Positions 11,731-41,500 of a stretch of 64,000 bases of DNA are shown here, piece by piece. Positions within the stretch are counted from its first letter, which is position 1. Each line of letters starts with the position of its first letter. The translations under genes were made by a program, and so were the position numbers. Source of the DNA: Psococerastis gibbosa (taxonomy: Eukaryota; Arthropoda; Insecta; Psocodea; Psocidae). The notes beneath the pieces are model-generated. The model did no database searches. It saw only the letters and a list, made by a program, of their open reading frames with translations, and had not been told where the DNA came from. The stretch lies in the NCBI GenBank assembly GCA_963971405.1, contig OZ020488.1, positions 11,101,261 through 11,165,260 of the forward strand, written 5' to 3'.

Positions 11731-14700
11731 CTAGCTGTGAGCTCCGCCATTTGCTTTCTGCAACTCATTGCGGTACGCGATGAATAAGTTTTGAATGTCT
11801 GCTAGGGCGCGTTCTATTTTTTTTGAAAATTCACTTGAGCTCTGTAAAAGAAAAAGGAATAGTTTTAGGCCCGGTCCCATCATCATTTGAAAAGTATTTT
11901 AAAGAAATACTGGACGGCAAAGTAATCATTCAACGCATGGCGGTGCCGTACAGTATTCCTAACCGAGAGTTTTCAGTCCTTAGTTCTAGAGTTAGCTGGT
12001 GGAACAGTGTTTCAAGGAGCAATTGCCATCAGGACCTAGCCCAATGTGCGCAGAACACAGAAGCACCATGTGTCAGTTAAGGGTTTCTTGGTCACAAAAT
12101 ATAAGCATTCGACAGTCGCATGCCTGCAAAGCTTGCCATCGCAGGCTGCGGCATGTAGGCCTACATGCCTACAGTTTAATAAATACATATTGACTTTTTG
12201 TTCTATTACTAAACCAGCCTAGCGGAGTTAGGGTTATAAAGCCCATTCATCACGGAGAGGGACGATAATTCACCTACGTACAGTAAGAAGAAATTCGGTC
12301 AATAAATAAGACTTTTGGAGCCACAGAAACTGAAATGAATTGGGATGAACCTAGCTTAGTAAAGAAACTCGGTTAGTAGCCAGATACCCGTTCGTCCGGG
12401 GCAAAGTTGACCACAGTAACATACTCAATACGGTCCTGATGGGTAAAACTTTCTGCGCCAATTTCCAATTGAACCGGTCGCAAATATATGTGTGAAAAAA
12501 GGTTTTGCTCTCTGTACATGTCTCTTTTAATTAGTCAGTTATCGCATGGGGGTTCAAACCTCCCTCCCACAAAGTATTAATGCCCAAAGACTGTTTAGTC
12601 GAACTACACAATTGGGTTTTGTTGATCCGATAGCAGACTAAGGCGCTTATTCCGCAAACGTCAATAGTGATAGTAAATGTAGTATTGACGAAAATATGAA
12701 TTTTACTCTATGCCATAGTTAAAATTGATCAATGAACATAGAGTAAAATCACGCGTTGCAAACAATAACAAACTAAAATGGCGTCATGGGATATGTTAAG
12801 TACAAACATTTTATATTTTATTGTTTATAAAACAATTTTCATCCATTAAACAGATCGGTGAAGGTCGATCTCCTACTATTATTAGGTTTTATTAAAAATA
12901 ATAAGTGTACGAAGAAAACAAATACAAACAAAATTTCAAAAAACAAATGCAAACAAATTTCAAAAATTTGGCGCATACGTGTCATTAGAAGAAAAGTGAT
13001 CAATAGTAGAAAAAAAACTGTGGAATGGCGTGTTTCAATGAAAAATTCAAATTTCCGTCAATACTACACTTACTACCACTATTGACGTTGGTGGAATAAG
13101 AGCCTAAAGACTTAAAACAAAACAAATAAAAAAAAAAGCTTCTGCTAATACCAGTAGGCTCTTTCTAGGCTGATAATCACCATAGAAATACATTAATTGG
13201 AGCGGCGGGAGCCATAATATGCCTTACGAGGCACCCGTTAAACCATAAGCCAACTATCAGAGATAAGTACCAACGCAAAAAATATCGTAGTCTTACACAT
13301 TGCAGCATAGCAGAACGGATACCTGCAGCCTGATCGAGGCGATTATAATACCGGTATTTATTTAATCCCCTGATATTAAAAATGTAAACGAGATAATTTT
13401 ATAATGGAAAGTGCTATTCAAAATTTGTTTGTTTACAGTTATAATCCTAGGGTATTTTTATTTAACTCCGGTATTATAATCGCCTCGATCAGACTGCTGG
13501 ACCCGGTCAAAAACTCTGTACTTAGCTTGTGCAGGCTACACTTATCAATGGTTTTCCCCGCCAAATTGCGTACTTATCTTGTGCAGGCTACACTAGCAGC
13601 CATATTGATAACGGTCTCCAGCCACGGGATGATAACCACACGCACACACTATACTACTCACCGTTTGAGCACAGGACTTTTTGGAGGAGATGTGAAAAAA
13701 GATGCGGTCTTCACCGGCAATGATGTACGACACGCCGTACCCGTCGTCTGCTACAGGGCCGAAACCACCACCCGCTGATATGCAGTCTGGGTATTGTTTT
13801 AAGTCAAATTTGGGGGTCTGGCCGTGGGGGGTTTGCGACGTAGACAGCCGCCACGGCTCACTGAGAACCTCACTCAGGAATGGCGAATCAACCTGAAGAA
13901 ATATAATGTGATTATTCGTGAATCCATTTTGGTTCAGTAAATAAAAGAGCAAAATGCTCCATTCTCGGCAGAATCCCTGCATTTAACAACTCCCTCCAGC
14001 AACATACTGCGGAAAGCTTCAACCCGAAAAGTGAACCGCGGTTGACTCTAATAAATCATGCCACACAACTTTATGTCCATAGGCGGGTATTCCACCGACC
14101 TCTCATTGCAGAATGCAAATGACATTGACGGAAATTTTTGCTTTACTCTATGCCATAGTTAAAATTGATCAATGATCATAGAGTAAAATCACAAACAAAC
14201 TAATTTTAAAAAATGGCGTCATGGAATATGTTAAGTACAAACATTTTAATAGATTTCTATAAAAAGAAAAATTAAAATTTTCGTCAATGTCATTTGCATT
14301 CTGCAATGAGAGGTCGGTGGAATACCCGCCTAAGTCTTGAATGTCTGCTACCACGTCAATGTCTTTGCATTCTGCAATGAGAGGTCGGCGGATACCCTGC
14401 CATAGCAATCCTAACAACCAACAAAATTATGAAAACCAGAGAAGACATGGAAAAATTCGAACCCTTGCCGGGGTGGTACGCTCACCACTTCCCCAAATCC
14501 GTTGCCGGCTATGTCTCCACGTATTCCCGTACTTGTGCTCTATTGATAACGAGTATTTGCACCTTAATGCAGGTTCAATGCAGGCCTAGACCAATACATT
14601 TATTTATTCTAATGTATCGAAGATGTCTAGCCTTGCATATCAATGAACTACATTACACATGGAAAAACGAACACGGTCTCTGAGCAGCCCCGTGTTGATA

Positions 14701-17700
14701 TCAGTTTGGACACAGATACATACCATCAACACATAGTTCACAACAAATACTCCCAAGTAAAGGCGCAAATATTGTTTGTTTTCCAACGCTTGCTGTCAGT
14801 ATTTCCGCTTTAAGCAACCCTGTCAGCCTGGCAGGGGGAGTGAGTCTGTTTCTTAACTTGAGGCACCTCACGGTGAAGGAGAGTTGACTGACAGGATGGA
14901 CCTCCTGAATATAGCTGATTCCAAACCGTTCCCCTGCCAATGCTGTGCACACTACCATATTTGCTGCAGTTTTGAAAAGGCTTTCCTCTGGTGGATTAAA
15001 CTTGATAAGGTCGTTGACATGGCGCAAATATATGTAACGGAATAACCACCTTAAGAGGCAATAGATCTTAGAATTGTGACCATGACCTGTCTCTTCTCAC
15101 ATACAGCAAACCACTCACCTCGAGGTATTTCGAAATGACGTAGAGACAGAAGAGATGTCGATCGATGCCCCGGCCGCACATGGCGTCCTGGTAGGCACGC
15201 TGGTGCACGTTTGCAGCCTGTCTCAGTAGGTCCACCTTGGCCGCGAGCGGCTCGTCGGCGCTCTCCATAGCTCGGACCCACGCCGCGGACTCCACGGTGC
15301 ACGGCCTCACAGTCTCGGTACGGCCTTCGCGGAAGAGACGCGTCATCGCTGCTTCATACGTTAGCGAGAATTTACCGGAGTCCTATAAGTTAGAGAAGGT
15401 CAATGTAAAAACCTAATTAGCTGTCATCAAGCGCCCTTACTTACTCCTTACTTCATCCAACGCCCATACGAAGCCTTTCAGCCATCGGACGCCATGCCAC
15501 CCAGTATAAAGAAGCTCGTCCCTCTATTGTAGCTTCGCAAGTGACGCGAAGTATGAAATTTCAAGCTGCCAATTACCTACGGGACGTTTACTCTTAAGTA
15601 AAAATAAAATGTAAAACGAAAATTATAGGTGTGTACATACCATAGAAATATGTCAAAAGAATTATATAAATATAATAATATATATATATAAATATATTAA
15701 AAGACTATAGTAAACGGCGGGAGCCATAATATCCCTCACGGGGCACCCGTTAACCATAAGCCAACTATCAGAGATAAGTACCAACGTAAAAAATATCGAA
15801 GTCTTACATATTGCAGCATAGCAGAACGGATACCTGGACCCGGGTCAAAACTCTGTACTTAGCTTGTGCAGGCTATTTACCCAGCGAAATTGCGTACTTA
15901 TCTTGTGCAGGCTACACTAGCCGTCATATTGATAACGGTCTACAGCCCCGGAATGGTACATACCCTGAAATAGGCCAATTGCAAGGCCATTTGAATGAAA
16001 GCGTCAGGACTAATTCTGCACTCCTTCATGAAGCCTTTCCCATACTTAGTGTAATCCAAAATTCGGAGATCAATATCAGCGATTATTTTCTGTACTTCCT
16101 GCAACACACAATAAACAAAATAACCTACTGTATCTTACATTTGGTAGGATTACCAAAAAGGATATTTGTTGATGGCATGGGTTGATGTGATGGCAGTTAA
16201 CAGTTTACTAGGCATGGTAGTCTCTGTTATGTTTGATGTCAATTTTCACATGGAATTCCACTTTGCTAATTAACCGGGTACAAATAACCAGATATTAAGA
16301 ACAGACGACTTCTCCCTTATGGCACAAGAGTCCAGAGAACCCCTTCAGTCGCCTCTGTAGCTGGTCTATTGGTAAAGGTGACTGTGAGGCCCCTGCCTCT
16401 AATGACTATTAACACAGCAGTTGAGCTACGACAGGTCTGGGGTCGCCGCATGGTGTGGAGACACTCGCAATAGTACCAGCCATGCCACCAAAGACCTTAT
16501 CTTATGTGACTTGAAATAGGCTTACGTTATCAGCAATATCTATTGCGTCCAGATAAGGCTGCGTCAGGTCCCACTGGACCCGGATCGGGGCAGGGGGTGT
16601 GAATTCTGCTACCCCCACGCAATGTCCTTCGGGAGTGTATCTGCAATTACCACCACACCAATGTAAAAGAATGTTACCGCAAATACAAGACTTTCCCTGT
16701 CACCCTTATTTTTCTTGTCGCCTATCTATAAATGTGTTGTACAATCAATGCCTACTAACTCCTCATTTAAAAGTAGGTATTCTCTAAAAATTTTACATTT
16801 TTTTAGTTCAAAATAATACGAATATCTAAATGCTCCTGCAGCCCTATTATGGCAATGAATTTGGGATTAACATAACACCGGGGTTTATTCAATTGTTTTA
16901 AACTAATTATTGCAAGATACGCGGGAAATTTAAAGTGATAAATTAATCCTCAGCTATATTTTTGGAGTTTTCAATTTCTTCTCCCTTAGATGCAGACACA
17001 TTAATTAAAATTCTACAGGTACTATTTAATGTTTATTAGTATTTCCTTCAATTATAAATCAATGCAACCATTCTCTTGTATTCCAATAACTTATTAATTT
17101 GAATTTCCCGCATATAATTTAACACCGTCACGTGATACCTTCCTAAAGCTGTAATAAAAAATAAACCCCGGTATGATATAAACCACGGTATTGTGTTAAT
17201 CCCAAATCGTCATAATAGGGCTGCAGAGGCACTGGTAGTTTCATATACCTCAGTATTATATACTTGTCTGGAATTTTGAACTGCAATTTATTTAAAAAAA
17301 AAAAAAAACTGATAATTTCTGTTAAAAATTGGCAGAGCCAAGTTTGTTTTTAAATGCTTGAAATATCGCTCAACCTTGAAATATATCAACTGCGAAGTAG
17401 ACAATTTGGCGAGGTTAATTTAAAGCAACTAGAACATTTAAGAAATTATTAAAAAGGAAAAAAATATTAAGAATTGTCAGATTTTGGAGTGAACATTTTC
17501 TACGGCCTGTTATGAATAGAAGACTATAAATTAAATGAATAGGAGAAAATAGCAGTAGCAGTAGTGGATAAGCAAAAAGCATGCGGAAAATGAAAAATAG
17601 CATACCGAGGTGCGTCTTCATGTTCCCACCCTATGCATTCCTCCCATGCATGTGCCATCACGGGGGCGTCCGCCCTAAACAGAACCCACACCGTAAAGCC

Positions 17701-20700
17701 ACCTGCGGCTGCAAATAACTTGAGTTCCATCGGAGAGAGCAGACACGGCTCTTTTTGACCAATCAGAGCACGACAAGATGTATTGTTGTTTGGGAACGCC
17801 TCAGGCGTGTTCTGATTGGTCGATGATAAAAAAAAACGTGGCAGGTGGCAGCAGAAATTAAAAAATAATAATTAGCGTAAGCGAAAGTCCCATCCCTCCG
17901 AATTCTAAACTCTACCATTAACCGAGCCCAATACCTAATTATTATGTTACTGGAGTTATTTACAAATACATTTAGAAGATCGAGTAAAATACTGATAATC
18001 CTAATTAATGTTGATCAAAATTTACTGGATTTCAGTGCAGTGGCACGCACAATCAGAGATGTGAGGTGCAATCACTCAGAAAGTTGCAATGGATGGCGTC
18101 AGGTAAACTACAGTCTACAGGAACCGTGTCAAGGGTAAAAATTACACATCAGGAACTGCAGGCGAGACTAGATTCTATGTACTGTACTGCGGTACCAACC
18201 AAAATATTTCGTATGCGGTACGTGGGTTCGTGCACAAAACATGAAAAGCAGAACTCTATAAGGTTGCACTATTGCATTGTCATAATAATCATGTTGCTAA
18301 TATAAAAGCTTCGGCAGACCACCTAACAATATTTTACAAAATAATGAAGTTTAAGCCAATGACATTTATTACAATAAATCGAATAGATGCAAATCCGAGT
18401 TCCCATAAAAAATTAAAAACAGTCATTTTACTCTTTGGTAAATTAATTGTGCTTAACACTTAATTTTTAAGAAACAGCAATATTAAACGGATAGTAATAA
18501 AATGTCGGTATATTATAATAATGTCAGCGACTGAAGAGCTGCGACCAGAACCAAGCACGATAGGGAAGCAAAAGAGAAACTGAAAAATAAAGGAATAAAT
18601 AGAATGCACAGCTGAAATAAAGAAAATCATAATACCACGAGACCAAAACCGCAGTTAATGATGTTAACACTTTGATTTATAAGCTAGCAGTGTTTCTTTG
18701 TCTTGCTGCAGATGCCAAAAATGGATCCAAATCCAGGGGCGTCATTTGAATTTCGGGGGGGGGGGGGGGGCGCAAGATGGGTACATTTTTTAACAATCTC
18801 CTTGATAGTCAGGGTCAATGTCTTATAGGGCACATCACAACAAGGCGGATGCGGTTTGAACAGCTAGATGATTTGACACAGATACATCTTTTTTTTAAAC
18901 AAATGTTTAGGAAATACGTACTGCATACACCATTCTTGTGTTTGTATAGATACGGTGATCCTCTTTTAATGATAGTTTTTGTTCTTTCTTGCGAAAAACA
19001 GTGGGTGTACTGATTCTTTTCGGACCCACTAGCACTTAGCCGATGGAAAAAAAAATAGTAAACTATACCATCCAACACGAAATGAATAAAGGTGTGTTTT
19101 ACCATCGCGGAGAAGCAAGATGTTTGAGTGAAATTAATTTTAGGGCAAGTATCGCAAAACTGGGCTAGCTGAGTCCTCCATAACGATTAAGGCTTTGGAT
19201 TTGGTAACATTGTTTTTCTCTTTAATATTTTTTTGCGCCTAACACATCCCCTATTTGCCGATTGCGGAATTTTAGTAACCTATACCATCCAACACCAAAT
19301 GAATAAATTGTGGGTTTTGGCATCGCGGCGAAGCAAAATGTGTGAGAGAAATTGTTTTTAGGGTAAATACCGCAAACTGGGCCGGCTGAATTCTTCGACG
19401 AACACCCACTCCCACATGTGTGCCATTACGGCCGCGTCCGCCCTGTCAAACATACCACAAACAATCACAATCAGAATTATGAGCGATGCGGCGACGCAGC
19501 GTCTGAAACAGAACTCACGTAACGCAACACAAATACATCACAATTTACATATATGTTCAATAAGGTCAATACAAGGAAAGCCCCGATCACGTTGTGCAAT
19601 AAAAATTTCATTTTTTTCCAAGTTTACTACTTCTTTTTCTCCGAAAGGTAAATTGTTATAAAACTTAAAACCATAGAATGTAATCCATTTAGTTAAAAAA
19701 AAAATACGTTGGAATAGCTGGAAACGAAAAGGCGGACCTGCTGGCCAAGAGAGCCACATTTGCAGCGAATGTGGCAGATCCTCCAGAGAAGAAGAAGTGC
19801 GAAGCAGGTTATCAACAGGTCTATAAGGCGGAGATTCCACCGACCTCGTTTGTGTTTAATGTCTGCTACCACGTCAATATCACGCTGACAAACACAAACG
19901 AGGTCGGTGGAATCCCCGCCTAACCAGAGGATGCAAGAACGTTCTATCGACCAGTGTAGCAGGACAGCAATGGGAACCTCTGGTTAAGAATCCCATACCC
20001 CCATGCCTAGAGCTTATCGTTTTCGATGCGAAACTGCTTATGACCAATGCCCACTCTGCTACAGTGGACGTGTGGATGACGCCCACCAACAAACGTGCCA
20101 ATCTACATCTCAAATAACGACCTGCTTCCACTCTACTGGCAGGCCGGGCGCCAGGGACATAAATAAAATGAAAACTGGTAGCCTAAGCAGTTGTGCCAAT
20201 GAATTAATCGTTAGATGAGCATAATGTACAATAATATTAAAATATCATTAAAAATCCGCAATACTGTATCAGCAACATGCAGTGCAAATCGAGCGAAAAC
20301 TGCTTTAAAAATGGCAGAACTTACCACGAATGTTCAGCATTGAACCCAACCTAGAAACAAAAGAGAAATATAGGCTACATACAACTAGCTTTAACAGTAA
20401 TTTAATTGATTATAGTTACAGTCATTCACAGGAAATAATTTATGAAATAGGCTATTTGAAAGTGGAAAATAATAATTAAAATGCTAGAACTCTTCTGATC
20501 GGCGAAGATTTCCACACATGGACGATTCGCTCGCCAGTGACACGCTGAGAAATTGTCACTGTAGCAAATGGATTACTGGAAACCACTGAGTCAATTTCAG
20601 AAGATTTCTACGACTGGGGTGAACCCGACAGCACGCAGGTGCACACTGCATGGTTTTCCTTTTGAAACGCCCAGGACACGCCAGCTCATAGAAATCTTCT

Positions 20701-23700
20701 TAGTAGACTCTGGTTTTGCACCCATGACAAATTCCCAGCGAGTCACCAGTGTGTGAATCTTCTGAGTGGCCTATATATAAAAATAATGTCCTGAAGGAAG
20801 ATTTATAAACCTAGGCCAATTATTGATCCCTTCTCCAATGCCAACGAACCAATGGATTTCGGGCATTATTTACATTGTTTCCGTATGAATTTTGGGCCAT
20901 TGACAAATTGGTATATGGATTCGATGTCAACTTACATCGGCTTCAAGCGATAATGGACAAGCTGAGACGAGCTCACCATTGACGCAATGTAACAGGAGAA
21001 AGCATGACTTTACCATGTACAGATGTACGGGCCATAAGTGGAATGAAATTAATTTTGTAACCGTATCCGGTTGGAGTCAATTGTACCACAGCTTTCGTCT
21101 GCCTCAACAATATGGCAAAGTGCTTTCTTCTGAGGTATTTGCTATGCCTTACACAAAAATTTAGATGCATATTATGAATTATTCACGTACCCGACCATTA
21201 GATCCTATGCACAAAGTAAACGACTTGTCGTACCACCGGTCGAAGCCCTTGCCGTGCAGCAGGTGTGACCCGTATCGGTCGAGCAGTTTGGGTTGCTTCG
21301 GGTCGAACTCGTACGGGACGTCATCCAAGCAGACGACGAAAGCGGCCTTCTCCACACTGTCAAGCGCCGTTCTGTTGACGCCCTTGAAGAAAAGTTTCTG
21401 CCGCGTCTGCGCCCAATGCACGCGACTGCTGCCAGTCAACGCTGCCACCTTCGCTTCGCCTGGGGTGGGTTCGGATGTATCATCGAGTATTTGGCGCATT
21501 TGGCTGAAAATTGCAGAGGAATGATAAAGCATATTGTGCTGATAATTATCTTCAATTGCGTTGTAATGATTTACTCCTGACAGCTAGGTCTCATGGTGTA
21601 CCGTACCTATGGCCTGTTTTTACAATTGTGCGTCATTACTAGCCAATCAGAGAGCTAGTTACATGTATTTTTGACTAACGATGGGTAGACTTCCCTGAAG
21701 TGATGAAAGGCTCGTAAAAACGACTAAGAGGGCATTTCTCAGGAATTGGTAGACAGTGGTTAGGACTCCCCATGAAGATTGGTCGACGTTTTGGTACGAA
21801 AAGTTGGTTTTTTTTCTTACCAAAACCACGGCCTAAGTTAGTTCCAACTAACTTATTAATTACTACCACTAGGCAAGCTTTATGGGGCCACTAAACATCC
21901 ATAAAAAGCCCATCAATTGCATTATAATATTATATCTGGACCACTATTCAACATGCTAACATTAATACATTCACTCATGAGGGAATTATAGCCTAATATT
22001 GTATTTCTAAACTGACAAGAACAATCATAATAGTACTTACATTTCAATTTCACAGGGAGTGAGCAGTCTGTTCTTATAGTAAATGACGACTTTAAAATAA
22101 CGTCCCTTGTGGTAAACGACGACATGGTTGGAATCAGCGAAGTGGAGAATCCGGTCTTGATCCACGCCCGGGACGCGGGTGGTGTTGAATACACGTTCAT
22201 ACTGGGACGAGCACAGTGGCACCAGGCCTTGTACCAAGATCTGCAAAATACCGCAATGTCAAAATTAAAAAAAATAAACTGTCCCATCGCTGAATGACCA
22301 CATTGAACAAGGTGAATTCCCATTTCCCAGTCACGTCAATATTGCAGGGAACAAGAAAGCAGACATTCTCACAAAAATGGGCACCCTTCTACAACAAGCC
22401 CTAAGGTCAGCCAAAAGCACCATTGAACAAAGACGAACAAATAACACCCGTAAGCGGGCAGCAGAAGGAAAGCGCAAGTGCTCACAAGTCGCAAGTCACA
22501 AGTTTTCCGCCGCCTCTATTCGTCACACAACCGACAGGAGTCACCGGCATGCAACCAGTCTAAGGACGCTGCCTACCTGATGAGTTGCCCAGTATTAAGC
22601 GAGATGACCGAAATTAGAGGATATCGAAAAACTAGGCTTGGCGGGATTCGAATCCACCATCTACGCCTAACCGGGGCATCGTCTTAACCGCAGGACAGAC
22701 GGACGGACGGGCGCTAGACCAGCGGTTAAGACGACTCCCCGGTTAGGCGTAGATCGTTGGTTAAAATCCCGCCAAGCCCAGTTTTTCTATATTCTCTAAT
22801 TTTAGTTATAACGAGGAGGTTACCTCTTCAACCAAAGTTAATTTAATGTCAGAGTTATGTATACCATATAATACTGCAATATAATGTGTAAAGCGAGATA
22901 AGGCGGACCTTGAACCTAACGGCAGAAATGCCAAGTGCTATCAAGTACTGACCCATAAAACAGCTGTTTCAAGGTTTGTTACCCCCGTCCCCCTTCATAA
23001 ACGGTTCCCATAACTAGTATAAATCCATGAGTACAACACAGTATAATTGTTAATATACCAATAAATTAGTATTTAAGAAGTAAACTTACCGGGGCCAACT
23101 CCTGTCGTTCGATGGCCCTGCGGAACTGAAGCAAGGCGTAAATAATGCCACCAGCGCGAGCCGCTTGCGTAGGAATATCCGGTCTCAAAATGGCATCTAT
23201 TCCGTAGAAATTTGAATTAATTACTAAAGGCGACCGACCGCGTAGGTATACGAACTCTTCCCACCAATCAGAAACGTAGTTGGTGGCCCACCTGCAAATC
23301 ACAACAAAAACCATTAAAACTACAAGCACGATATAAAAATAATAGTATTTGTTCTACATTTAATGGGAAAGAAATCAACCAAGGTCGATCTCTCTGCCAC
23401 CATTGTTGCCACTTTACTAGTAGTAGTGTTTCAGTTCCGGGGAAGGCCGATTTTAACGGAGAACGTGTTTGAATAGCATTGGGGCTGTCTAACATTTCAT
23501 TGAATTTAATGTCAAGGTACGCAATAGATCAATCAATCAATCAATATATTCAAAATTAAGAATACAATACAAAATATACATATTAGAAAATGAACCCTAT
23601 AGGCCATGTGGCCCGTGATGAGTTCTTATATAGAGCAGCGTTTCTCAATCTCACGGCACACTAACTGACAATCAAATTTACTTACGGCACACTATGTTAT

Positions 23701-26700
23701 TATCATTTCATTACATTCAGTTAGGCAAAACTATAAAATAGTAATGCATGGCATGTTTACTAGGTTAAACAAATGAAAAACTCCTAGTTAGTGGTAAAAC
23801 GGCACAACAACAGAGTACCTATGTGAGCAACCGCATTTTACCGGGTGACAACTAACGGTCGTAACTGATGTCACAAAATGTTCGTCTTTTTTTGCGGCAC
23901 ACCTACAGACCCTTTACGGCACACCGGTTGAGAAACGCTGCAATAGAGGGAGATGGAGAGGAAAACCAAGGAAAAGAAGATACAGAAACCAAATTGAGGA
24001 AGATCTCAGGAGAGTAGAACTGGAACACTGAGTGATCAGAAGTGGAGGGGCAGGATGGAGTGGAGGAGGCTCACATATCACGCCCGAACAGCTGGAGCTG
24101 GAATATTGATGATATGTTAAAAACACAACGCAGCAAATGTTATCATTCCTTCAGCACTTACCAGGACTTGAGAACGAGATAACGCTGAAACTTCTTTCCA
24201 ATACCATTTTGAAATTCCGTAGCTAGTTTTTGTACACGTTCATATTGCTCATCGCCCAGAAGCGGACGTACGCTTCGCAGGTACTGCAACAAAAATCAAT
24301 TGAAAACGTGGCTTAAACGAAGAGGTACCTCCAAGAGTTAAGAGTGTACAGCCCGTAGGAAAGTGGCAGCCCAAAATTTAATACTTTTTATTTTTTATTT
24401 AATTAACTAAGCATGTTATTAAAGATTTAGCTCATCAAAGTTGTAGAAGACTACTTCATGCATCATATTATAAAATAGTTTTAATTTTCGAAATTGTAGT
24501 TTTTTTATAAAATCGATTATACGTGAAAAGTTATTGTTAATCAAATATTTGCATGTTTATGAAAAAACTACAATTTCGAAAATTAAAACTATTTTATAAT
24601 ATGATGCATGAAGTAGTCTTCTACAACTTTGATGAGCTAAATCTTTAATAACATGCGACGGAGCAGCAGTAAAGCAGTTTCACAGCGGTAAACATTTGGG
24701 AACAGTAAAGGTCTAAGGGTCCATTACTGTAGAAGTGGGATGTACATAACTCGCCTAACATATTCGATACTTAGCTACTCCCTAATCCGTCTGGGTGTCT
24801 AGTTCCTGAGCATGGGATGTTTTTGTTCCGGATCAGTTTATATCTTCTAAATATCAGAGTGAACATAGGCTACGACGTTTAAAGAGTAGGATTTACCTTT
24901 GATGAATATCAATGCAGTGCAAGCCATAGGCCGGCGACATACTATCCCTTATCACCGTCCCGCCAAAAGGGACAGGTTTAAAGGGATGGCATGAAGGCAT
25001 GGAGCCTAATGAGCGTGGTCACACTGTTCCGGTGGTGCTGCGGCAGGGTATGTAACCGGACACGGGGCAAATAAATAAACGTTGAGTGAGGCAAGATAGC
25101 ATTTCAACACATGCCACAATGTAACTTGAGTAAGAGAGATCAAGAGTATAAAATACTAGTCAGCCATTTTTAATCGGTCCCACCGGACAGTGTGGCAGCG
25201 TCGTGTCTTCCCGCCAGAATGCATCCCTCTCAGCCGCATACGGCAAAAAAGGATAGCATGTCTCCGGCATTCCATCTAACACAGGTGCAAACATTGTTTG
25301 CCAAACAATTGCGAGAATGGACGTAGGCAAGAAGAATTTACATTAAAGAAGGAAAGGTATGTATTGCTATCCGTAATAAGGCACACCATTACGCTATAGT
25401 AAATCAGCATTTAGAGTACGGCGCTAACACGCTGACATCTTTACATTATTGCTTGAATGTCCACAAATTGATGGCATCCATTTTATTTCTTCTCAATGTT
25501 TGTCCTTAAGAGGAACCTGACCGTGATATAGAATAACGGTAAAATCAGTTCGTTTATATTTTCTATTTAATTTAATATGGGAGCAATAAAGATTTGGTAA
25601 TAAGGTATATTAAGAGTGTACAGCCCGTAGGAAAGTGGCAGCCCGAAATTTAATTCTTTTTATTTTTTATTTAATTAACTAAGCATGTTATTAAAGATTT
25701 GGCTCATCAAAGTTGTAGAAGACTACTTCATGCATCATATAATAAGGTATTTTTAGTTTTCGAAATTGTAGTTTTTTTATAAAATCGATTATACGTGAAA
25801 AGTTATTGTTAATCAAATATTTGCATGTTTATGAAAAAACTACAATTTCGAAAATTAAAACTATTTTATAATATGATGCATGAAGTAGTCTTCTACAACT
25901 TTGATGAGCTAAATCTTTAATAACATGCTTAGTTAATTAAATAAAAAATAAAAAGTATTAAATTTCGGGCTGCCAAATTTCTACGGGCTGTACACTCTTA
26001 AAAGGATAAATTATGAATCATTCAAGAATATCCGTGAAACATGTTAGTACAGAAGGAAAAACATTAATAGTAGCCAATAATTTGTCCAGACTCTACTAGA
26101 ATATGCTCCTCATCGGTTATATTGCGCACTATACCAGAATGTCCAATTCGACAAACTGTATGGGTAAACTTCAAGCGTCCCCTATAGGTTATTTCGAGGT
26201 TGCTTCAATCAATCAACCAAACAAAAAATTGAAATAAATAAGAATGCCAAGTGATCTAGCAATGGCTGCATGTATAGCCGCCATTTTAGATTTCTATAGG
26301 AAAGATTGACTTACCCTAGTAACGGTCTCATTTAGCGGCGGGACGAAGAGCTTGGGGAGAGAGCCCTGGTAACTGTACAGCATGGGCCTGCCAAACGCAG
26401 TGAGCACCTTCACAGCCGCCAGCCAGACTTTAGTCCGCAGTGATATCGTCCGGCCTTTACCTCTCTCTTCGAACATCCAACCTGCATACATATTTTGGTT
26501 TTCATCCTATGAACGTGTGATACATACTAACTAGTGTTCTATGAAGCCGACTTCAATGGCAATGTGGTAGCGTGCTTGTACTTGTGCGAGGCTCTACACG
26601 CTATGTACTAACCTACAGAGACGACTGAAGAAGTCAATCGGATACATTTTTATTCTCAATGAGGTTCTGTAGGGACAGTTTTGGTCACTAGGTTCGCTGA

Positions 26701-29700
26701 CGACAAACCGATATCCATATTATTCAAAATGGCCGCCGTTTGCATGTGAAAACTAAGATCTTAGCATCTAATTAATTCTTTTAATACTTTTTATAATATT
26801 TTTACTATGCCTCGACCTTATTTCGCTGCATATAATTTAATATATATATTCTCCATGACTTATAGAAAAATATAATATAATACAAGAAACAATATCCGCA
26901 ACCCATTCAGTTGCTAAGGAGACATGTCGGCAGTGGTAAGTAGGCTACTCGGGCTGATTACGCTCAATGTGCCATCTAGGTAATATAGATAGTTGAGATA
27001 CCACTATAACTACCTATCACGTCCTTCTAAAAACTGTAATTCTTCCAGTAAAAATATAAAAATGTCTTGAGAACTGCGCTGATCTAGGTTGCGATCATCA
27101 GCGCCCAGATCATAGCATGACAAAGTGTTTAAAGTCATGGCAGTTGCAGTCTATGTAGTAATAATAATAAAAGCAATGTCTTTAAGGACTTTTTATGGAT
27201 CTAGCCCTATTAGTAGTAGTAGTGTTCGTCGGGTTAATAACGACTTAGGCCTCATATTTGGGCCCATAGAGCGACCCCGACTTGACTGTCCTACGCCAGC
27301 CCATAGGACAGTGGACCTCCTGATTATAGTGGATTCCGAACCACTTGGGAAACGCAGTGAAGTCACACGATTAGTTCGGAGGTGACCAGGACAAGCCCTA
27401 TCATGTTTCCCTACCGGCACTGTGCACACGACCAAGTTATCTGCAGCTTTGAACCTGCTCTGGTCCGCTGGATCCAACTTGGTATGGCGGCCGGTACCTA
27501 GCCCTATCGGTCCTTTGCCCATTACCAATGACCCTATGGATTTCGGACATTATGTATATTGTTTCCGTAAGAATTTTGGTCATAGGCAAACTGGCATAAG
27601 CCCTCGATGCCAACCTACACCGGCTACAAGCGATAATGGACAAGCTGACCACTGACGCAATATAACAGGCAAAAGCATGACTAAACCAAGTACAGATACG
27701 GGTCAAGCAGAAAAAAACTTAAAGGCCCTTACCTTTGTACATAAATAGGAGTTTATGTAAATATCGTATAATATGTATACAGAGGATCCACCATAAAAAT
27801 CCAACAATACAAGCAGCTATGAATTGCCATTGCATAGAATCTCTGTAACACAAACACACTAATTCAAATCAAATATACCTAATTATTTCCAAAGAAACCA
27901 TTACAGCATGTCGTACCTTAGACAATATTACTCTAGACACGCCATGTTAGAATTTCCGAGAGACCAACATAAAATGACGCCACACACCGGCAAAAGCGCA
28001 AAAGCAGCTTGCTTTCAGAGGCGTGAACCAATTATTTTTATAAGTTTTGTTTAGTTAATTAATTAATTGGAATGAGAGAACATTTTTTAGCTTTGGTAAA
28101 ACTTATTTAATATTCAAATATTCAATTAGAAACTTTTAACGATCAGTTCATTAAATTTTGAAGAAAAAAAAAACAATTAGTCTACAACAAAGTCATCCGC
28201 TGGCAAAAGATAAACATAATGTTGGTGCCCCAACTTTCTCATGCAGTGCATCTAGAATGCCGTGCCTAGAGTATTAAGAGTCGTACAACACAGTGATTTT
28301 GGTCTCATTACGTCCTCTGATACCTTATTATTATTAATATTTTTCTTCATGTAATGTAAAGTTTAATATTTCCTGAATATCACCAAAATGGATATAGTAG
28401 CCTCTTGTTGGCATGAGCATCAGCCTTTTAATTAGTCACTAAAGCTTTTATCAAAGTACCGGTTGATGTGGAAACTTGTGGCGACGAATTTGACACAGAG
28501 GTCAATATACCGGCCCGACAAGGTGGAGGGTTGAGTTTAAATTTTGTTTCTGTTCATTTTTTTATACCTTTCTTTCTCTATGGTAACTGGTAAACCTGGA
28601 TTGAGGCACCCTAGTGCTCATCCTAAGATGGAGGCCTGGGTTGGAATTCCGTTTCTGCTTATTTTTTTTAGATCTTCCTTTCTCTATGGTAACTGGTAAA
28701 CCTGGATTGAGGCACCATGTATTGCTAGTGTTCATCCTAAGATGGAGGCCTGGGTTGGAGTTCAGTTTCTGTTTATTTTTTTAGATCTTCCTTTCTCTAT
28801 GGTAACTGGTAAACCTGGATAGAAACACCATGTATTACTAGTGCTCCTCCTATCTACCAGTACTAGAAGATGGAAACCTCGGAAGTGGCGAAGACACCAG
28901 AGGGATTTCTTATCTCGACAGTACTATAGGAATTTCCACTTACTTGGGTAAATGAGGTTGGACTCGCTCTAAAAGCCCTCCAGGAACTCTGTAGCCCATA
29001 AAGTTGAAAGCTGCAAGAATCGCCACTGTTATCCAATAGCTTTCGATGCTGGCAGGATAGACGCCATTCTTGATGCCATTCTGCAAAAAGACCATTAACC
29101 AGTGAGTCATTACTTAGTTTTAATTTACTTATACTGCGCCTTATCCGCACGGAGGGTCGGCGGCCCGACAGCAGCGTTTCCACACAGTCCTGTTCTGTGT
29201 GTCTCAGGTTGAGAGCCCCAAACTTCTCGTATCTCAGGCGATCTTTCTTCCCAGTGTAACTTCCGGCCTCCCTGGTGATTTTCCTCCTAGTATCTCCCGG
29301 TTCATTACTTTTTTTGACTATGCTGTTGTAGTTTCTACGTAGTGAGTCAGTAATGCCTACAATTTACCTGAAATTTAGCAGTCACCGACGCAGTCAAGAG
29401 CTGCACCATGCACCAACAAAATTAGCAGTACACGGATTCAACCTCAATGTTGCGGACCGTGACTGTATGTGTGATGTGCGAAAATCAGGGTCCAAAATAC
29501 CTAATTGCGTGGTGTCCCCAGGGGTAAGATCTATTGCATCCTACGCCACCATGTCTGAGACAATGACCAGTTTGCCACCGGCACAGAACCGCACCTAGTG
29601 ATGTTCTGCTTTCTGATTTTGTGCTGAGGACTTCCTAGGGGAATTTCCATTCATCTTCTTCACCTTAGCCTCTTGCCTTGATTACGTTCATTAACGACGG

Positions 29701-30370
29701 GCCTCTTTAACATACACGGCAACATGACTTACTTCCGTTCCTAGATCCTTACGGAGTTATTATATCTCTCCGTTGAGGTCCAGCAGGCTGATCACGGCGA
29801 TTATAATACCGGGATTTATTTAATCACTGGTATTAAAAATGTAAACAAGATCGACTTCGATGGCCAGGTGGTAACGTGTTTGGACTTGTGCGAGTCTTTA
29901 CACGCCATGCAATCGGAGACGTGTCGTACTCATCACGGGTAATAACCTACAGAGGCGACTGAAAAGGTCAATCGGATACATTCATTAAATTGTTTGTATA
30001 CGATTTATCTTTTTTTAATAAAAAAAAAAAAGATAATTTTATAATGGAAAGTGCTATTCAAAATTTGTTTGTTTAGATTTTTAATACCAGGGATTAAATA
30101 AACCCGGTATTGTAATCGCCATGATCAGGCTGCTGGTCGGCCCATGGCAGCAAATTAAACGTGTAAGCGCTAGTATTTTACGTCTCAGAATTAATGATGT
30201 TTAAAAGTGGTGCAGCTATGTTGACGTACCTTGAACCTGGCCAGCCGCTTCTTCCACGACCTAACTCCCGAAGCCCAGACGACGTTGAGGACCTCCTTGT
30301 CGAAGTTAACGTCCCAGCCCTCGTGCGTGACAGAGAACGAAAACGCCACAGCAGAGTGGGCTTCTGCCAT
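11731..30370 (-). CDS. CPT1: Carnitine O-palmitoyltransferase 1, 15 coding exons, complete
   Basis: Outer mitochondrial membrane enzyme that moves long-chain acyl groups from CoA to carnitine, the malonyl-CoA-controlled entry step of fatty-acid oxidation. Minus-strand coding exons: 30230-30370, 28944-29080, 27733-27842, 26315-26481, 24162-24283, 23090-23291, 22041-22240, 21191-21503, 20325-20350, then 17606-17674 (10A) or 19371-19442 (10B), 16526-16640, 15964-16098, 15119-15382, 13662-13892, 11731-11841. They join without a frame break into 780 aa (10A) or 781 aa (10B); human CPT1A has 773. The N-terminus [15 protein letters not shown] keeps Glu3 and His5, linked to malonyl-CoA sensitivity in the mammalian enzyme. 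Two membrane segments lie at about 62-80 and 98-118. Catalytic motif NAEHSWADAP has His471. [12 protein letters not shown] is in the 264-nt exon, and LSTSQTP (Ser684-Thr-Ser686) plus [16 protein letters not shown] in the 231-nt exon. All junctions are GT-AG. Introns are full of MITEs and LINE pieces. Confidence 0.97.
12190..12262 (-). mobile_element. SINE family F, partial copy 1
   Basis: The stretch reading CCTAGCGGAGTTAGGGTTAT matches the tail portion of the fuller copy at 46650-46855 and, reversed, 60396-60500. Only the 3' part is present. It lies in CPT1 intron 14. Confidence 0.55.
12642..13104. mobile_element. PIF/Harbinger-type MITE, 463 bp, TAA duplication
   Basis: Starts GGCGCTTATTCCGCAAACGT and ends with the inverted form, flanked by TAA at 12639-12641 and 13105-13107. 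The interior includes the shared ACTCTATGCCATAGTTAAAA and GGCGTCATGGGATATGTTAA blocks. An open frame inside (12858-13085) is low-complexity and not a gene. Lies in the last CPT1 intron. Confidence 0.8.
13190..13625. repeat. Dispersed repeat next to the CPT1 exon 14 donor, copy 1
   Basis: The block from GGCGGGAGCCATAATAT through TTGATAACGGTCT recurs at about 15715-15955. In this copy a palindromic MITE (13326-13496) splits it; the other copy is uninterrupted. Its right end stops about 35 bp short of the exon 14 splice donor at 13661. It contains two tandem CTTGTGCAGGCTACAC units. Family unknown. Confidence 0.7.
13326..13496. mobile_element. Palindromic CAG/CTG MITE, copy 2, with known empty site
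   Basis: Starts CAGCCTGATCGAGGCGATTA and ends CGCCTCGATCAGACTG. CTG flanks both sides (13323-13325 and 13497-13499). The homologous repeat near 15834 reads TACCTGGACC with one CTG and no insert. That makes a 3-bp CTG target duplication here. Confidence 0.8.
14082..14401. mobile_element. PIF/Harbinger-type MITE, composite, ATA duplication
   Basis: Starts GGCGGGTATTCCACCGACC. An internal inverted end lies at 14330. After it a second arm (GTCTTGAATGTCTGCTACCA) leads to another inverted end at 14401. ATA at 14079-14081 and 14402-14404 flanks the whole. This is a chimera of inner and outer elements like the nested pair at 1304-1698, with one outer arm lost. Confidence 0.7.
14760..15010 (-). mobile_element. 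SINE-like family C, copy 2 (reverse)
   Basis: Reverse complement of the 37255-37630 copy over CCCTGTCAGCCTGGCAGGGG and the heart of the element. The tail end is near 14775. It lies in CPT1 intron 13, just before the 15119 splice donor region. Confidence 0.6.
15715..15955. repeat. Dispersed repeat next to the CPT1 exon 12 donor, copy 2 (empty site)
   Basis: Homologous to 13190-13625 but without the palindromic MITE, giving the pre-insertion sequence of that site. The right end stops about 10 bp from the exon 12 donor (GTATGT starting at 15963 on the minus strand). Confidence 0.7.
16336..16475 (-). mobile_element. SINE family A, copy 2 (reverse)
   Basis: Reverse copy beginning CAGTCGCCTCTGTAG, with a short internal insertion reading GCCCCTGCCTCTAATG relative to the copy at 31331. 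Lies in CPT1 intron 11, close to the 16526 exon end. Confidence 0.55.
16839..17223. mobile_element. Palindromic CAG/CTG MITE, diverged subfamily, 385 bp
   Basis: Ends are CAGCCCTATTATGG and its inverse, with subterminal TTTGGGATTAACATAACACC and CCGGGGTTTATT repeated inverted on the right. It resembles the CAGCCTGATCGAGG family in end sequence and spacing but not in the rest. Lies in CPT1 intron 10. Confidence 0.7.
17606..17674 (-). CDS. CPT1: CPT1 alternative exon 10A
   Basis: 69 nt encoding [20 protein letters not shown] then AP and the first two bases of Arg. The acceptor is TTCTGTTTAG; the donor is CG then GTATGC, a weak one. The first base completes the Trp codon begun in the 26-nt exon 9. 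ADAP is the conserved motif right after the catalytic His-Ser-Trp; its Pro is equivalent to human CPT1A Pro479. The frame matches exon 11, which opens with A TAC ACT. Confidence 0.88.
19040..19200 (-). repeat. Decayed tandem duplicate of part of exon 10B and its 3' flank
   Basis: About 19040-19200 repeats 19270-19400 (shared pieces TATACCATCCAACAC, CATCGCGG, GAAGCAA, GCAAACTGGGC). In the minus-strand copy the end of the exon reads GCCCAGTTTTGCGATACTTG, so the donor GT is lost, and the 5' half of the exon (ADA...HMWE) is absent. It is a non-functional third partial copy, showing that the locus duplicates in tandem. Confidence 0.65.
19371..19442 (-). CDS. CPT1: CPT1 alternative exon 10B
   Basis: 72 nt encoding [20 protein letters not shown] then PSL and the first two bases of Arg. 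The acceptor is GTTTGACAG; the donor is CG then GTATTT. Phases at both ends equal those of 10A. Nine of the first eleven residues match 10A (ADA.VMAH.WE), then the two diverge fully. The ADAP proline is Ala here. It lies upstream of 10A in the transcript. Splicing both keeps the frame too, so exclusivity is a prediction from analogy with insects and not forced by phase. Confidence 0.82.
19690..20210 (+). mobile_element. LINE remnant: RNase H end and C-terminal region
   Basis: Plus strand reads [17 protein letters not shown] (the end of a LINE RNase H domain) and after a Harbinger MITE insertion (19827-19920) continues toward [18 protein letters not shown], a Cys/His block typical after RNase H. 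Several frame breaks. Lies in the CPT1 intron between exon 9 and 10B. Confidence 0.65.
19827..19920. mobile_element. PIF/Harbinger-type MITE, 94 bp, TAA duplication
   Basis: Starts GGCGGAGATTCCACCGACCT and ends GAGGTCGGTGGAATCCCCGCC, flanked by TAA at 19824-19826 and 19921-19923. It split a LINE fragment, so it is younger than that fragment. Confidence 0.85.
20325..20350 (-). CDS. CPT1: CPT1 exon 9, 26-nt microexon with the catalytic histidine
   Basis: Minus strand CTAG then 26 nt encoding VGFNAEHS plus TG of the Trp codon, then GTAAGT. The His is residue 471 (human His473), the general base of carnitine acyltransferases. The preceding exon ends in phase 0 (SNGR), so the protein reads [14 protein letters not shown]. 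It is far too short to show as an open frame. Confidence 0.9.
20800..21015. repeat. Dispersed repeat pair, copy 1
   Basis: ATGGATTTCGGGCATTAT through CAAGCGATAATGGACAAGCT and GCATGACTTTACC recurs at about 27505-27700 in the same orientation. Unclassified; both copies lie in CPT1 introns. Confidence 0.6.
22322..22600 (+). mobile_element. LINE remnant: end of RNase H domain
   Basis: Reads [20 protein letters not shown], the conserved His/Asp end of a LINE RNase H, then basic sequence without clear motif. It is next to a head-to-head pair of tRNA-like SINE pieces. Dead fragment in CPT1 intron 6. Confidence 0.6.
22600..22800. mobile_element. SINE family E, two tRNA-like copies head to head
   Basis: Left copy (reverse) has GGATTCGAATCC-like B box and CTTAACCGC A box region; the right copy (forward, from about 22712) reads AGCGGTTAAGACGACTCCCC then GATCGTTGGTTAAAATCCC. 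A (GACG)n stretch separates them. A third copy is at 63300-63395. The two arms can pair as a hairpin about 90 bp long. Confidence 0.65.
23636..23940. mobile_element. hAT MITE, 305 bp
   Basis: TIRs CAGCGTTTCTCAATC and GGTTGAGAAACGCTG are classic hAT ends. Flanking octamers are ATATAGAG (23628-23635) and CAATAGAG (23941-23948), six of eight identical. The interior has repeated CGGCACAC. It has no coding capacity and lies in CPT1 intron 5. Confidence 0.85.
23946..24115 (+). mobile_element. LINE C-terminal remnant
   Basis: Reads [20 protein letters not shown] then a short tail with [18 protein letters not shown]. Basic arginine-rich sequence followed by EEDL is usual at the end of RTE-like and related LINE proteins. 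An in-frame stop interrupts it. Confidence 0.55.
24342..24655. mobile_element. Palindromic TTAA MITE, copy 1 (right end lost)
   Basis: Begins GAGTGTACAGCCCGTAGG after TTAA (24338-24341). Inverted arms carry TTGTAGAAGACTACTTCATG and its reverse. It breaks off at AATAACATGCGACGG, about 70 bp before the expected end. Confidence 0.75.
25614..25997. mobile_element. Palindromic TTAA MITE, copy 2 (complete, 384 bp)
   Basis: TIR GAGTGTACAGCCCGTAG on both ends, flanked by TTAA at 25610-25613 and 25998-26001. Arms of about 130 bp pair; the centre is AT-rich. TTAA targets suggest piggyBac or another TTAA superfamily, but the TIR does not start with the usual piggyBac CCY, so I leave it unassigned. Confidence 0.82.
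26545..26652 (+). mobile_element. SINE family A, copy 3
   Basis: GCCGACTTCAATGGCAATGT through GTCAATCGGATACATTTTTA. Lies in CPT1 intron 3. Confidence 0.6.
26655..26880. repeat. Dispersed repeat, inverted partner at 59400-59600
   Basis: AATATGGATATCG-type sequence with GGCGGCCATTTTCAATAATA (59-kb sense) is present here as the reverse complement, followed by CTAATTAATTCTTTTAATAC and GCATATAATTTAATATATAT. The two copies are about 33 kb apart in opposite orientation. Unclassified. Confidence 0.6.
27205..27500 (-). mobile_element. SINE-like family C, copy 3 (reverse)
   Basis: Reverse copy of 2443-2865 lacking its 130-bp extra piece; the trinucleotide tail (TAGTAGTAGTAG) is at the left end. Lies in CPT1 intron 3. 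Confidence 0.65.
27505..27700. repeat. Dispersed repeat pair, copy 2
   Basis: Partner of 20800-21015 (ATGGATTTCGGACATTATGT through CAAGCGATAATGGACAAGCT). Ends shortly before CPT1 exon 3. Confidence 0.6.
28540..28850. repeat. Tandem repeat, about 2.5 units of roughly 110-120 bp
   Basis: Three starts of CTATGGTAACTGGTAAACCT (near 28577, 28683, 28796) with following CTAAGATGGAGGCCTGGGTT. Units differ by small indels. Lies in CPT1 intron 2 just before exon 2's donor. Confidence 0.85.
29784..30132. mobile_element. Palindromic CAG/CTG MITE, copy 3, split by a SINE
   Basis: Starts CAGGCTGATCACGGCGATTA, ends with the inverted form. At 29852-30029 a family A SINE interrupts it; other copies show GTAAACAAGATAATTTTATA unbroken at this point. 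Lies in CPT1 intron 1. Confidence 0.8.
29852..30029 (+). mobile_element. SINE family A, copy 4, inside a MITE
   Basis: CGACTTCGATGGCCAGGTGG head, ends in an A run. AAGAT flanks both sides (29847-29851 and 30030-30034), a 5-bp or slightly longer target duplication. Best-preserved A-box-like head of the family. Confidence 0.75.
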
Positions 30371-37630: not shown

Positions 37631-38073
37631 GGAATGGGGGAGCTGGAAGGTAACCTTCAAAAGAGAGCTAAAGGGAAGATTTAAGAGACAATCGGCGGGG
37701 AAAAAGTCTTACAATGGTACAGAATCAAATTGATTATAAAATATCGAATTGAAAATGAAAAAATACTGTATAAAGCAGATCAGCAGAAAGTTCACAGTAT
37801 TATACCATAACCAAACGCACGGTAAGGTATAAAAGTCAAAATCTTTTGCTTGACAACGCGAAAGTGTTTGATATCAAAATCTGATAGTGAAACAATAGAT
37901 AGAGGCCTGTAATGTACCGGCTAATTGACTATCGAGCGGGACCGAAACGATTTGCGCAAACATATAGGCGGTTTGAACTAGTTGGACGCAGTGTTTGACT
38001 GCGTTCCATCGGGAGAACACCTCAATCAAGTTTTATCACAACTCACTCACTCATCAAATTCCCATAATCAAAG

Positions 38074-38502
38074 ATGGCGGCAGCTAAACAAGCAGACAGG
38101 GAATTTTGGCGGGAATTTATTGCATTATACCATGCTTTGCCTGAACTGTGGAAGATCAACAGTGATGAGTACAAGAATAGATTTAAAAAAGAGGCGGCAT
38201 ACGACAAACTGGTAGAAAAATATAGGGAAATTGATCCTAAAGCGGATAGAACAGCAGTGCGAACCAAGATTAATGTACTGCGAACGTCGTATCGACGCGA
38301 ACTAAAGAAGTTAAAGGAGAGTATAATATTTTTATCCAGGGGCGAGGAAGGTGAAATGTATATGCCGACATTGTGGCATTTTCATGACATGGACTTTTTG
38401 CGAGAGCAAGAGAGTGATTTTCAAGAAATTAGCGGAAATGCTGCTTTGGTGGCGGACGTTGCAGTTTACGAGGGAATTGACGAAACTAGTACAAACAACA
38501 TG
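38074..38502 (+). CDS. MADF first exon 1a of the MADF-BESS gene
   Basis: 143 codons from ATG (context AATCAAAG ATG GCGG) to a GTAAGC donor, phase 0. A MADF DNA-binding domain lies at about residues 9-110: [18 protein letters not shown], then [36 protein letters not shown] and [10 protein letters not shown]. If unspliced, the frame stops five codons on (38515-38517). It can join the exon at 42320 in frame. About half of the domain residues match exon 1b. Confidence 0.82.
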
Positions 38503-41500
38503 GTAAGCATTATCTGAGTATCTATAACTATCTTATGTATTTATAAGGATTTTACAATTTTGGCAGTGCATTATTGTTTGTACTGCCGGTAATTTCCTAC
38601 GTCCCCAGCAGCTGAGCAGCAGCAGCAACCAAAAACATTCTATAAATAGCAGAAACAATTTGGATCGAATCCGAATCTGTTGTCATTAGCTTAGAATTGA
38701 TCACAACCATGTTTACTTAATGTACCAAATAGCCATCCCCCATCATTAAGGGGGGGGGGGGGGGCTTGAACAATATTGAAAGGCCCAAATTAGACTCATC
38801 CGAACATAAAGGCATTTTTTTTTTTCATTCATTCCCCCTATTCACAACCTGTCTAATCCACAGAGACAAGCTTACAGCTAAGTTAAGCTTGGAATTCATA
38901 AGACGAGGCATGGTTGGCACGCAAATGGAATTCTTCTATTAATTCGCCGCGTCGTCATTATACACGTATAAGCTGAGTGTCAATATATTGAGAAGAACCT
39001 TGTTTCTAGTAATTTTTCATTAAAATTGAGCCTTTCATATTTTTTACGCCCTGACCCAGCCTAGTGGGTTTTGTTTAAAATAAAAAGTACTACAATAAAT
39101 GTGAATTTAAAAGAAATCTGATTTCATTCAATTCTGTCGAGTTATAGACAGACAGACATTTCGTAAAAAACACTTTTGAGGGTTCCTGGGACCTCAGAAA
39201 CGTACAAATTCACTATAATCTCGAAATCAATAATTTCGACCATCACAAAGTTTTCCTTATACTGACGTATAAATAGGAAAGCAAAAAAATAGCAACTCTA
39301 CGAAATGGGATTTGCAATCCAAGTTACTGGCACTCGCACAGTATGCAGGCGGTTTTATAAGACATTAAAATCATTTTTTTTTTTAATTAAAATTAAATCC
39401 GGAGAACAATTTTTATGGCATGATGTACCCTTTCCCAAAGCACGGATTTCAAGCCAGATGATCGGAGCCGTCCTAAGTAATAAAATTGCTTGGAATTTTT
39501 GACCTAGAACATATGAAAGTACCTGACCACGTTACGAAGACATTACGTAAGTCTAGTTTATTTTAATTCTCTCCCACTTTAACATTAAATATTGCATAAT
39601 ACACAATTCATTGTCTTTATAAATATGCAATTATACTACATATGTAATGATTCTTATCCTAACTATGACGAATATGTCATTTCTACATCACAAGAAGTAA
39701 AAGGCTAAAGCAAACCATAGACGTGCAATATTATTGCGCAATACCCCAGGTTGTACAATAAAATTGATCGTGTGTAGACGATATTGAAAGGTTGCACAAT
39801 ATATTGTGCGATTGACAAAGAGTTGAAAATATATTGTACAACCTGGGAAATATTGCGTCATCTGTATGTAGTATTGCGCAATATCCCGTCAGTTGGTCTC
39901 GAGTAGCGGTCGCGTCAACAAGTCCTCGCAACTACGCCTCATCATGGGTGAAAAGAAAGCGGAAAAACAATTTGTTGTTGAGTTTATAGAAGTATACCGT
40001 GGTCTTCCGGCTCTGTGGGATGTCAAGTCCAAAGACTATAGTAATCGGGCCAAAAAGGGGGAGCAGTATGACGTGCTAATAGAAAAATACCGCGAAAAAT
40101 ACCCGGAAGCCGAGAAACAGGATGTGGTTAAGAAAATAAATTCGTTGCGTACTAACTTCCGGAAAGAATTGAAAAGGATTCGCGATGCAGAAAGGAGTGG
40201 TGCAGGTGCAGACGATGTTGCACCTTCGTTGTGGTATTTTGAGGAACTGAGATTCCTTCAAACTCAAGAAACACCTAGTGCGTCAATAAACACGATGGAC
40301 ATATCTGAGGATACTACTGATGCGGTTGACAACAACGAGGATCGTGGTGATGCAAATGAAACAAACGTCCACAAAGTGAGTTCTCCATTTTATTAATTTT
40401 CTCTAGAAGTATATCCTACAAAAATAAATATTTTTGCTTTCCAATTTATACGTAGTATAAGGAAAGCTTTGTGATGTTCGAAATTTCCGATTCCGACATT
40501 TCAACGGAATTACACGTTTTGAGGTCCCAGGAACCCAAAAAAGTGGTTTTTACGAAATGTCTGTCTGTGTGTATGTCTGTCTGTTCATCTATTTCCGGGC
40601 AAACTGCTCCGCCGATTTTGATGAAATTTTGCATGTAGGTTCAAAAAAATCATGCCTCGAGACCATTTTTTTTATTTTGGGCTAACTCAATTTGGGGGGG
40701 TTTTATCGTATTCTCAAAAAACACCCAAAAAAAAACTTCTAAAAACATTATTATTTCTCAAAAACGGCTCCAACGATTTCTTTTAAATGCACATATATTG
40801 TAGTCGTTATTAATGTTAACAAAATGCGGGGGATCGCTTGCCCCTTGATAGTTAGCTTCTGGGGGTAAAAAAATAAAAATACCTCAATTTTAATGAAAAA
40901 TGACAAAAATATAATTTTATTGCGAAATCTTTCTATCGATGATTTCTACCTTCAGGCATGTTATACGTGTTAAATTGAGTAACGAAACCGGACAGGTTGC
41001 TTTGCCAAATAACTATTTGGTTTGTGCAAAAAAAATGTTTTTGAAAAAATTAAAATTCACGCTCAAATGCATTGCGTGCCTTGTCATTATTGCTGTGTGG
41101 TTATGTAATGTAATGTCTGACCTATCTAGAATTTACCTCATCTCCAGTGACGTCAGGTAGACAACCCCCCCCCCCCCCAATGTCCGAAATATAACTATAG
41201 GAAAATTATTTACCATGAAAGGACTCATTTTCTCTATCTACTAATTGATAAATTGGAAAGCATGTTCGAGTAAACTCGGACCGGTTTTTTCATTATCATT
41301 ACATTTAACATAATATTGTCCCAGTCACAATTAAAGAACACAAAATTGTGCAGGTAGCATACAAAATTCCAATTAATTTTGTGTTCTTTAATTGTGACTG
41401 GGACAATAGTTATTTTACTGGTTTTTAGTAATCATTATTATTTTTAGGTATACTCTTTCTAATTGTTAGTTGAGCGTGTTGCCCCTAAAATTTTCCAATG

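Follow-up and report, generated by a model that had tools for sequence, protein, structure and literature searches.

The window analyzed here, a stretch of 64,000 nucleotides (nt) from contig OZ020488.1, carries on its minus strand a gene for carnitine palmitoyltransferase 1 (CPT1) in which the short exon that follows the catalytic histidine is present in two candidate alternative versions, designated 10A and 10B. The CPT1 coding region runs over 15 exons from start to stop codon (11731 to 30370, minus strand). That the gene encodes CPT1 had been proposed in a first-pass annotation of the same DNA and is borne out by tblastn matches, exon borders, a single open frame, and matches to the profiles PF00755 and PF16484. 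The human CPT1A query used for these comparisons was a provisional sequence, and all identities and human residue numbers given below rest on it. With this query, the tblastn matches, of which some were weak, extended from 30370 to 13656; exon borders beyond the matches were read directly from the sequence. The last coding exon, exon 15 (11731 to 11841, minus strand, including the stop codon), was located by a brief scan with C-terminal pieces of the provisional human sequence, in which it scored 41 and the next best stretch 17, and is contained in the joined frame.

The joined coding frame is uninterrupted and encodes 781 amino acids with exon 10B or 780 amino acids with exon 10A, with identities to the provisional human CPT1A of 50.7% and 50.6%, respectively, over 770 to 771 columns. 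GT was found at 15 of 15 donors of the gene and AG at 15 of 15 acceptors. The choline/carnitine acyltransferase domain profile PF00755 matched the two forms about equally (545.7 bits with 10B and 543.4 bits with 10A). The CPT1-type N-terminal domain profile PF16484 (CPT_N) matched residues 1 to 47 over its full extent (profile positions 1 to 47 of 47; 93.9 bits), which marks the gene as CPT1. Hydrophobic stretches judged by eye in exons 2 and 3 are candidate transmembrane segments. Among solved structures, 15 distinct sequences matched, all named carnitine acetyltransferase, CPT2, carnitine octanoyltransferase, or choline acetyltransferase and none CPT1. The sequence NAEHSWADA, read across exons 9 and 10, provides the context of the catalytic His and aligned with EHAAAEG of carnitine acetyltransferase. 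In collections without eukaryotes, no relative of the joined protein was found in viral contigs, and none of 12 pattern-matching stretches of genome contigs encoded one. Judged from its sequence, the gene is an animal CPT1, probably from an arthropod, and encodes the predicted mitochondrial outer-membrane carnitine palmitoyltransferase 1.

Exon 9, a microexon of 26 nt (20325 to 20350, minus strand), encodes VGFNAEHS and the first two bases, TG, of a Trp codon; it holds the equivalent of the catalytic His, which is residue 473 of the provisional human CPT1A. His473 of human CPT1A is named as catalytic in PMC10076611. In the order of transcription, exon 9 is followed by 10B (19371 to 19442, minus strand; 72 nt, 23 full codons), by 10A (17606 to 17674, minus strand; 69 nt, 22 full codons), and by exon 11 (16526 to 16640, minus strand). 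The two versions have the same phase, with AG before and GT after each. The first G of either exon completes the Trp codon begun in exon 9 (TG/G), and the CG at its end is completed to an Arg codon by the A that opens exon 11 (CG/A). The first-pass annotation had stated that both exons start with GGCGGAC, end in CG before a GTAT donor, join exons 9 and 11 in frame, and encode the stretch directly after the catalytic His-Ser-Trp. All of this was recovered: the donors read GTATTT (10B) and GTATGC (10A), the full protein is uninterrupted with either exon, and exon 9 ends in His-Ser-Trp, which exon 10 continues with Ala-Asp-Ala.

The same annotation described a shared start, ADA.VMAH.WE, followed by total divergence, and the comparison agrees, since 9 of the first 11 residues are identical and the second halves show no similarity. 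At the nucleotide level, 27 of the first 34 positions match; among the first 11 codons, 6 are identical, 3 carry synonymous differences, and 2 specify different residues: at exon residue 4, 10A encodes Pro and 10B Ala, and at exon residue 9, 10A encodes Ala and 10B Met. The likeness of the remaining 38 nt of 10B and 35 nt of 10A is no better than that of shuffles, 492 of 1000 of which scored as high. Similar first halves beside unrelated second halves suggest that the two exons arose by an old duplication. That three of the five differing codons in the shared half are synonymous is, for so small a sample, in line with selection on both exons at the protein level.

The 3684-nt interval from exon 9 to exon 11 was scanned on the minus strand for candidates that consist of an open frame between AG and GT and resemble ADAPIVAHLWE. 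Exons 10A and 10B scored 52 and 47, respectively; the next candidate scored 7, and the maximum in 500 dinucleotide-preserving shuffles was 23. The pair is therefore not a product of chance. With the scan extended to the entire window on plus and minus strands, no other candidate scored above 15. A third exon was not found on the minus strand of the interval even with the splice constraints dropped, the next best exon-like stretch scoring 17. Used alone as tblastn queries, the exons gave weak E values (0.63 and 0.48), as matches so short would lead one to expect.

Local alignment and blastn also revealed a partial tandem duplication of 141 bp. Its source comprises the last 24 nt of 10B and 117 nt of the following intron (19254 to 19394, minus strand), and a degenerate copy lies at 19036 to 19177 (minus strand); the blastn core covers 118 columns at 83.9% identity. 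We rejected the copy as a usable third exon, since it holds the exon end with the exon start absent and reads AT in place of the donor GT. No other match within the window exceeds 13 nt. The presence of this copy in the intron indicates that a fragment of 10B was duplicated at least once more.

Exons 10A and 10B have the structural features of mutually exclusive exons: a tandem arrangement, equal phase, lengths that are multiples of three, and homologous first halves. We consider it very probable that exon 10 of this animal CPT1 gene was duplicated in tandem long ago and that each transcript uses one of the two copies, and we infer that their use would be mutually exclusive. The splicing machinery could pick 10A or 10B by tissue, and transcripts skipping both exons would be removed by nonsense-mediated decay. 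The segment after His-Ser-Trp could shape the binding of acyl coenzyme A (acyl-CoA) and malonyl-CoA differently in the two versions, so that a single gene would supply CPT1 in two kinetic forms. Use of both exons would mean that splicing, and not only separate genes, serves this animal to tune how fatty acids enter mitochondria.

Such a design is already known in insects, and the locus described here, as a further case of it, is mostly expected. Price et al. reportedly observed, in 2010, two alternative exons in every insect genome that they examined, in a segment of 21 residues that matters for the binding of substrate and malonyl-CoA; both variants reportedly occur in mRNA with a tissue bias, and the isoforms are said to differ in palmitoyl-CoA affinity and malonyl-CoA inhibition. 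Given that report, the age of the pair within insects is not a new inference. The further suggestion in the first-pass annotation, an origin old in arthropods or more than one origin, is one of its weaker points. Like the CPT1 gene of insects, reportedly single (whd, or withered, in Drosophila), our locus has a short exon in two in-frame versions directly behind the catalytic His. In design it differs in having 22 and 23 full codons plus split codons, against the 21 residues reported for insects, and in the broken partial third copy in the intron. If the host is an insect, the two-exon design could be expected; if it is another arthropod, the known range would be extended.

The statement in the first-pass annotation that Drosophila CPT1 has splice isoforms with different kinetics is on record: the fly gene yields two isoforms by alternative splicing, which differ in kinetics and tissue use (PMC7767417). 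The work of Price et al. (J Biol Chem 285:7857-7865) is cited by title in PMC10352773 and PMC3793950. Flies with altered splicing factors acting on CPT1 have high triglyceride (PMC10352773). That SR proteins affect fly fat storage lends general support, the words "CPT" and "carnitine" occurring 0 times in the accessible text of the two reports concerned (PMC11830124 and PMC7838711). For the mitten crab, CPT1 alpha and beta of 915 and 775 amino acids were described in a paper whose accessible text contains 0 words beginning with "splic" (PMC6070261). A literature search that left most subscription papers outside its reach found no report on mutually exclusive exons in arthropod or insect CPT1. 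Other systems are alike in part. Tandem homologous exons of which one enters each transcript are found in arthropod muscle myosin heavy chain, a different gene (PMC2257972), and at exon 11 of the Na+/K+ ATPase, again a different gene and one with two to four copies by species (PMC3793950). Vertebrates likewise have several kinetic forms of CPT1 per animal, but these (CPT1A, CPT1B, and CPT1C) are encoded by separate genes and do not result from exon choice (PMC7767417).

The splice sites around the two exons have features that could bear on a choice between them. In energies computed on the 9-nt duplex, no donor among the 15 of the gene pairs more weakly with the end of U1 than those of 10A and 10B (-4.4 kcal/mol each, with 5 of 9 consensus positions). 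Weak U1 pairing of donors is common in regulated exons, and weak donors needing enhancer proteins may aid the choice here. In G content, measured over the 21-nt stretch before the last four bases, the top three places belong to the acceptors of 10B, 10A, and 11 (0.33 to 0.38), followed by 0.29. All three contain TGTGG at a like position, at -17 of the 10B acceptor (19455 to 19459, minus strand), -16 of the 10A acceptor (17686 to 17690, minus strand), and -17 of the exon 11 acceptor (16653 to 16657, minus strand); the motif is absent within 60 nt of the other 12 acceptors. In a control over 455 acceptor triples, a common 5-mer at a like position occurred in 3 triples, that of 10B, 10A, and 11 among them, and a common 6-mer in none. 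The motif common to the three competing acceptors could perhaps aid the exon choice as well.

Further signals were observed in the same region. TGCATG, presumably an Rbfox-type motif, lies inside exon 10A (17645 to 17650, minus strand), and GCATG lies at 17584 in the intron just after; TGCATG occurs 17 times on the minus strand of the window. The strongest inverted repeats, considered for intron pairing, were a 98-column palindrome at 19826 to 19921 and a pair located in the intron that separates 10A from 11. The palindrome, which lies in the intron before 10B, is imperfect (77.6%) and is perhaps a small inverted-repeat transposon. The 10A donor, GTATGCTA, was considered as a U12-type site; it shares 6 of 8 bases with the U12 donor consensus, GTATCCTT, lacks the middle, and was judged to be U2 type.

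Several observations weigh against exclusive choice. The exon 11 donor (-4.6 kcal/mol) and the exon 7 donor (-4.9 kcal/mol) are nearly as weak as those of 10A and 10B, and the common TGTGG, suggestive as it is, was found post hoc. Steric hindrance between 10B and 10A is unlikely, the intron between them being 1696 nt long. No U12-type signal was seen at four acceptors, TCCTTAA being absent from the last 60 nt before exons 9, 10B, 10A, and 11, and TTCCTT, sought by eye, being absent there too, which leaves the separation of the exons without a U12/U2 explanation. Inclusion of both exons keeps the frame and adds 23 or 24 residues, and over the same stretch PF00755 still matches the double form (138.0 bits, versus 142.0 bits with 10B and 139.6 bits with 10A). 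By contrast, a direct join of exon 9 to exon 11 reads TG/A, a stop right after His-Ser. The frame thus guards against skipping both exons, not against including both; frame-based decay of the double form is excluded as the cause of exclusivity, and any exclusion would have to be imposed by the control of splicing.

Three alternatives to the use of both exons one at a time were weighed. The first, which we regard as improbable, is that only one exon is used, the other being a duplicate that has been silenced but keeps an intact appearance. The broken 10B fragment testifies that duplication and decay occur in this very intron, and both donors, as well as the tblastn match of each exon alone, are weak. 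Yet both exons are fully open, bounded by AG and GT, and in the right phase, with synonymous changes in three of the five differing codons; and 10A and 10B, which have diverged further from each other than the broken copy has from its source (83.9% identity), remain complete, whereas that copy is already without its donor. The two expressed splice forms on record in Drosophila point in the same direction. Less probable still is that both exons are often included together, resulting in a longer stretch after the catalytic His. Each exon repeats the ADA.VMAH.WE start beside the active site, the double form scores below either single form against PF00755, and the insect design is one of alternative use, in the Drosophila record and reportedly in the survey of Price et al.; these points stand against a frame that permits double inclusion and a Pfam match that tolerates the insertion. 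An assembly error or a pseudogene copy with no working CPT1, for which the richness of the window in repeats would speak, is the least probable of all, since the gene has one open frame of 780 or 781 amino acids, 50.6 to 50.7% identity to the provisional human CPT1A, and GT and AG at all 15 donors and all 15 acceptors, and since 10A and 10B differ too much for a single exon to have been assembled twice.

If 10A and 10B are indeed used alternatively, the two residues that distinguish their shared halves may matter for function. In the provisional human numbering, residue 4 of exon 10 corresponds to P479 (computed) and residue 9 to L484 (by counting on); Y498 would be the Tyr just after the exon 10/11 junction. 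P479L, L484P, and Y498C are among the mutations of patients with CPT1A deficiency (PMC10076611), and P479L is also the common human Arctic variant. The activity of P479L is disputed, being almost lost or 20 to 22% residual in some reports (PMC10076611 among them) and increased in another (PMC4920407). L484P and Y498C are classed as stability mutations far from the active region (PMC10076611); for L484P, this class speaks against a catalytic role of position 484. The coincidence with positions 479 and 484 is post hoc; it predicts that the isoforms differ in activity or malonyl-CoA response, of which the two residues may carry part.

A more specific proposal, which we put forward as doubtful, is that splicing would produce, in the 10B form, an equivalent of a change at the P479L site, with altered activity or malonyl-CoA response, and that one UGUGG-reading factor acting at the three acceptors would set the choice, for example, between flight muscle and fat body. 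A CELF/Bruno-type protein would be one candidate reader of UGUGG. Such a system could connect a strongly selected human variant with a switch that occurs naturally in another animal. What the locus adds to the known design is modest: the common acceptor motif, the apparent match to human P479 and L484, the stop predicted when both exons are skipped, and the broken third copy.

The window contains other features of minor interest. A direct repeat of 300 nt with 97% identity (24338 to 24637 and 25610 to 25909) lies in the intron that separates exon 4 of CPT1 from exon 5, and partial copies of it are present at 46095 to 46223 and 46259 to 46387. Exact patterns drawn from repeats of the window had no match in the viral contigs or the genome contigs. 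A tRNA scan and an Rfam scan at gathering scores gave 0 matches over the window. An open stretch at 54128 to 54532 (minus strand) encodes an L27 domain followed by the beginning of a PDZ domain and resembles a lin-7 (Veli) gene. On the plus strand, two open frames (38068 to 38514 and 39872 to 40393) encode a MADF DNA-binding domain (PF10545) and are perhaps transposon parts or duplicated genes.

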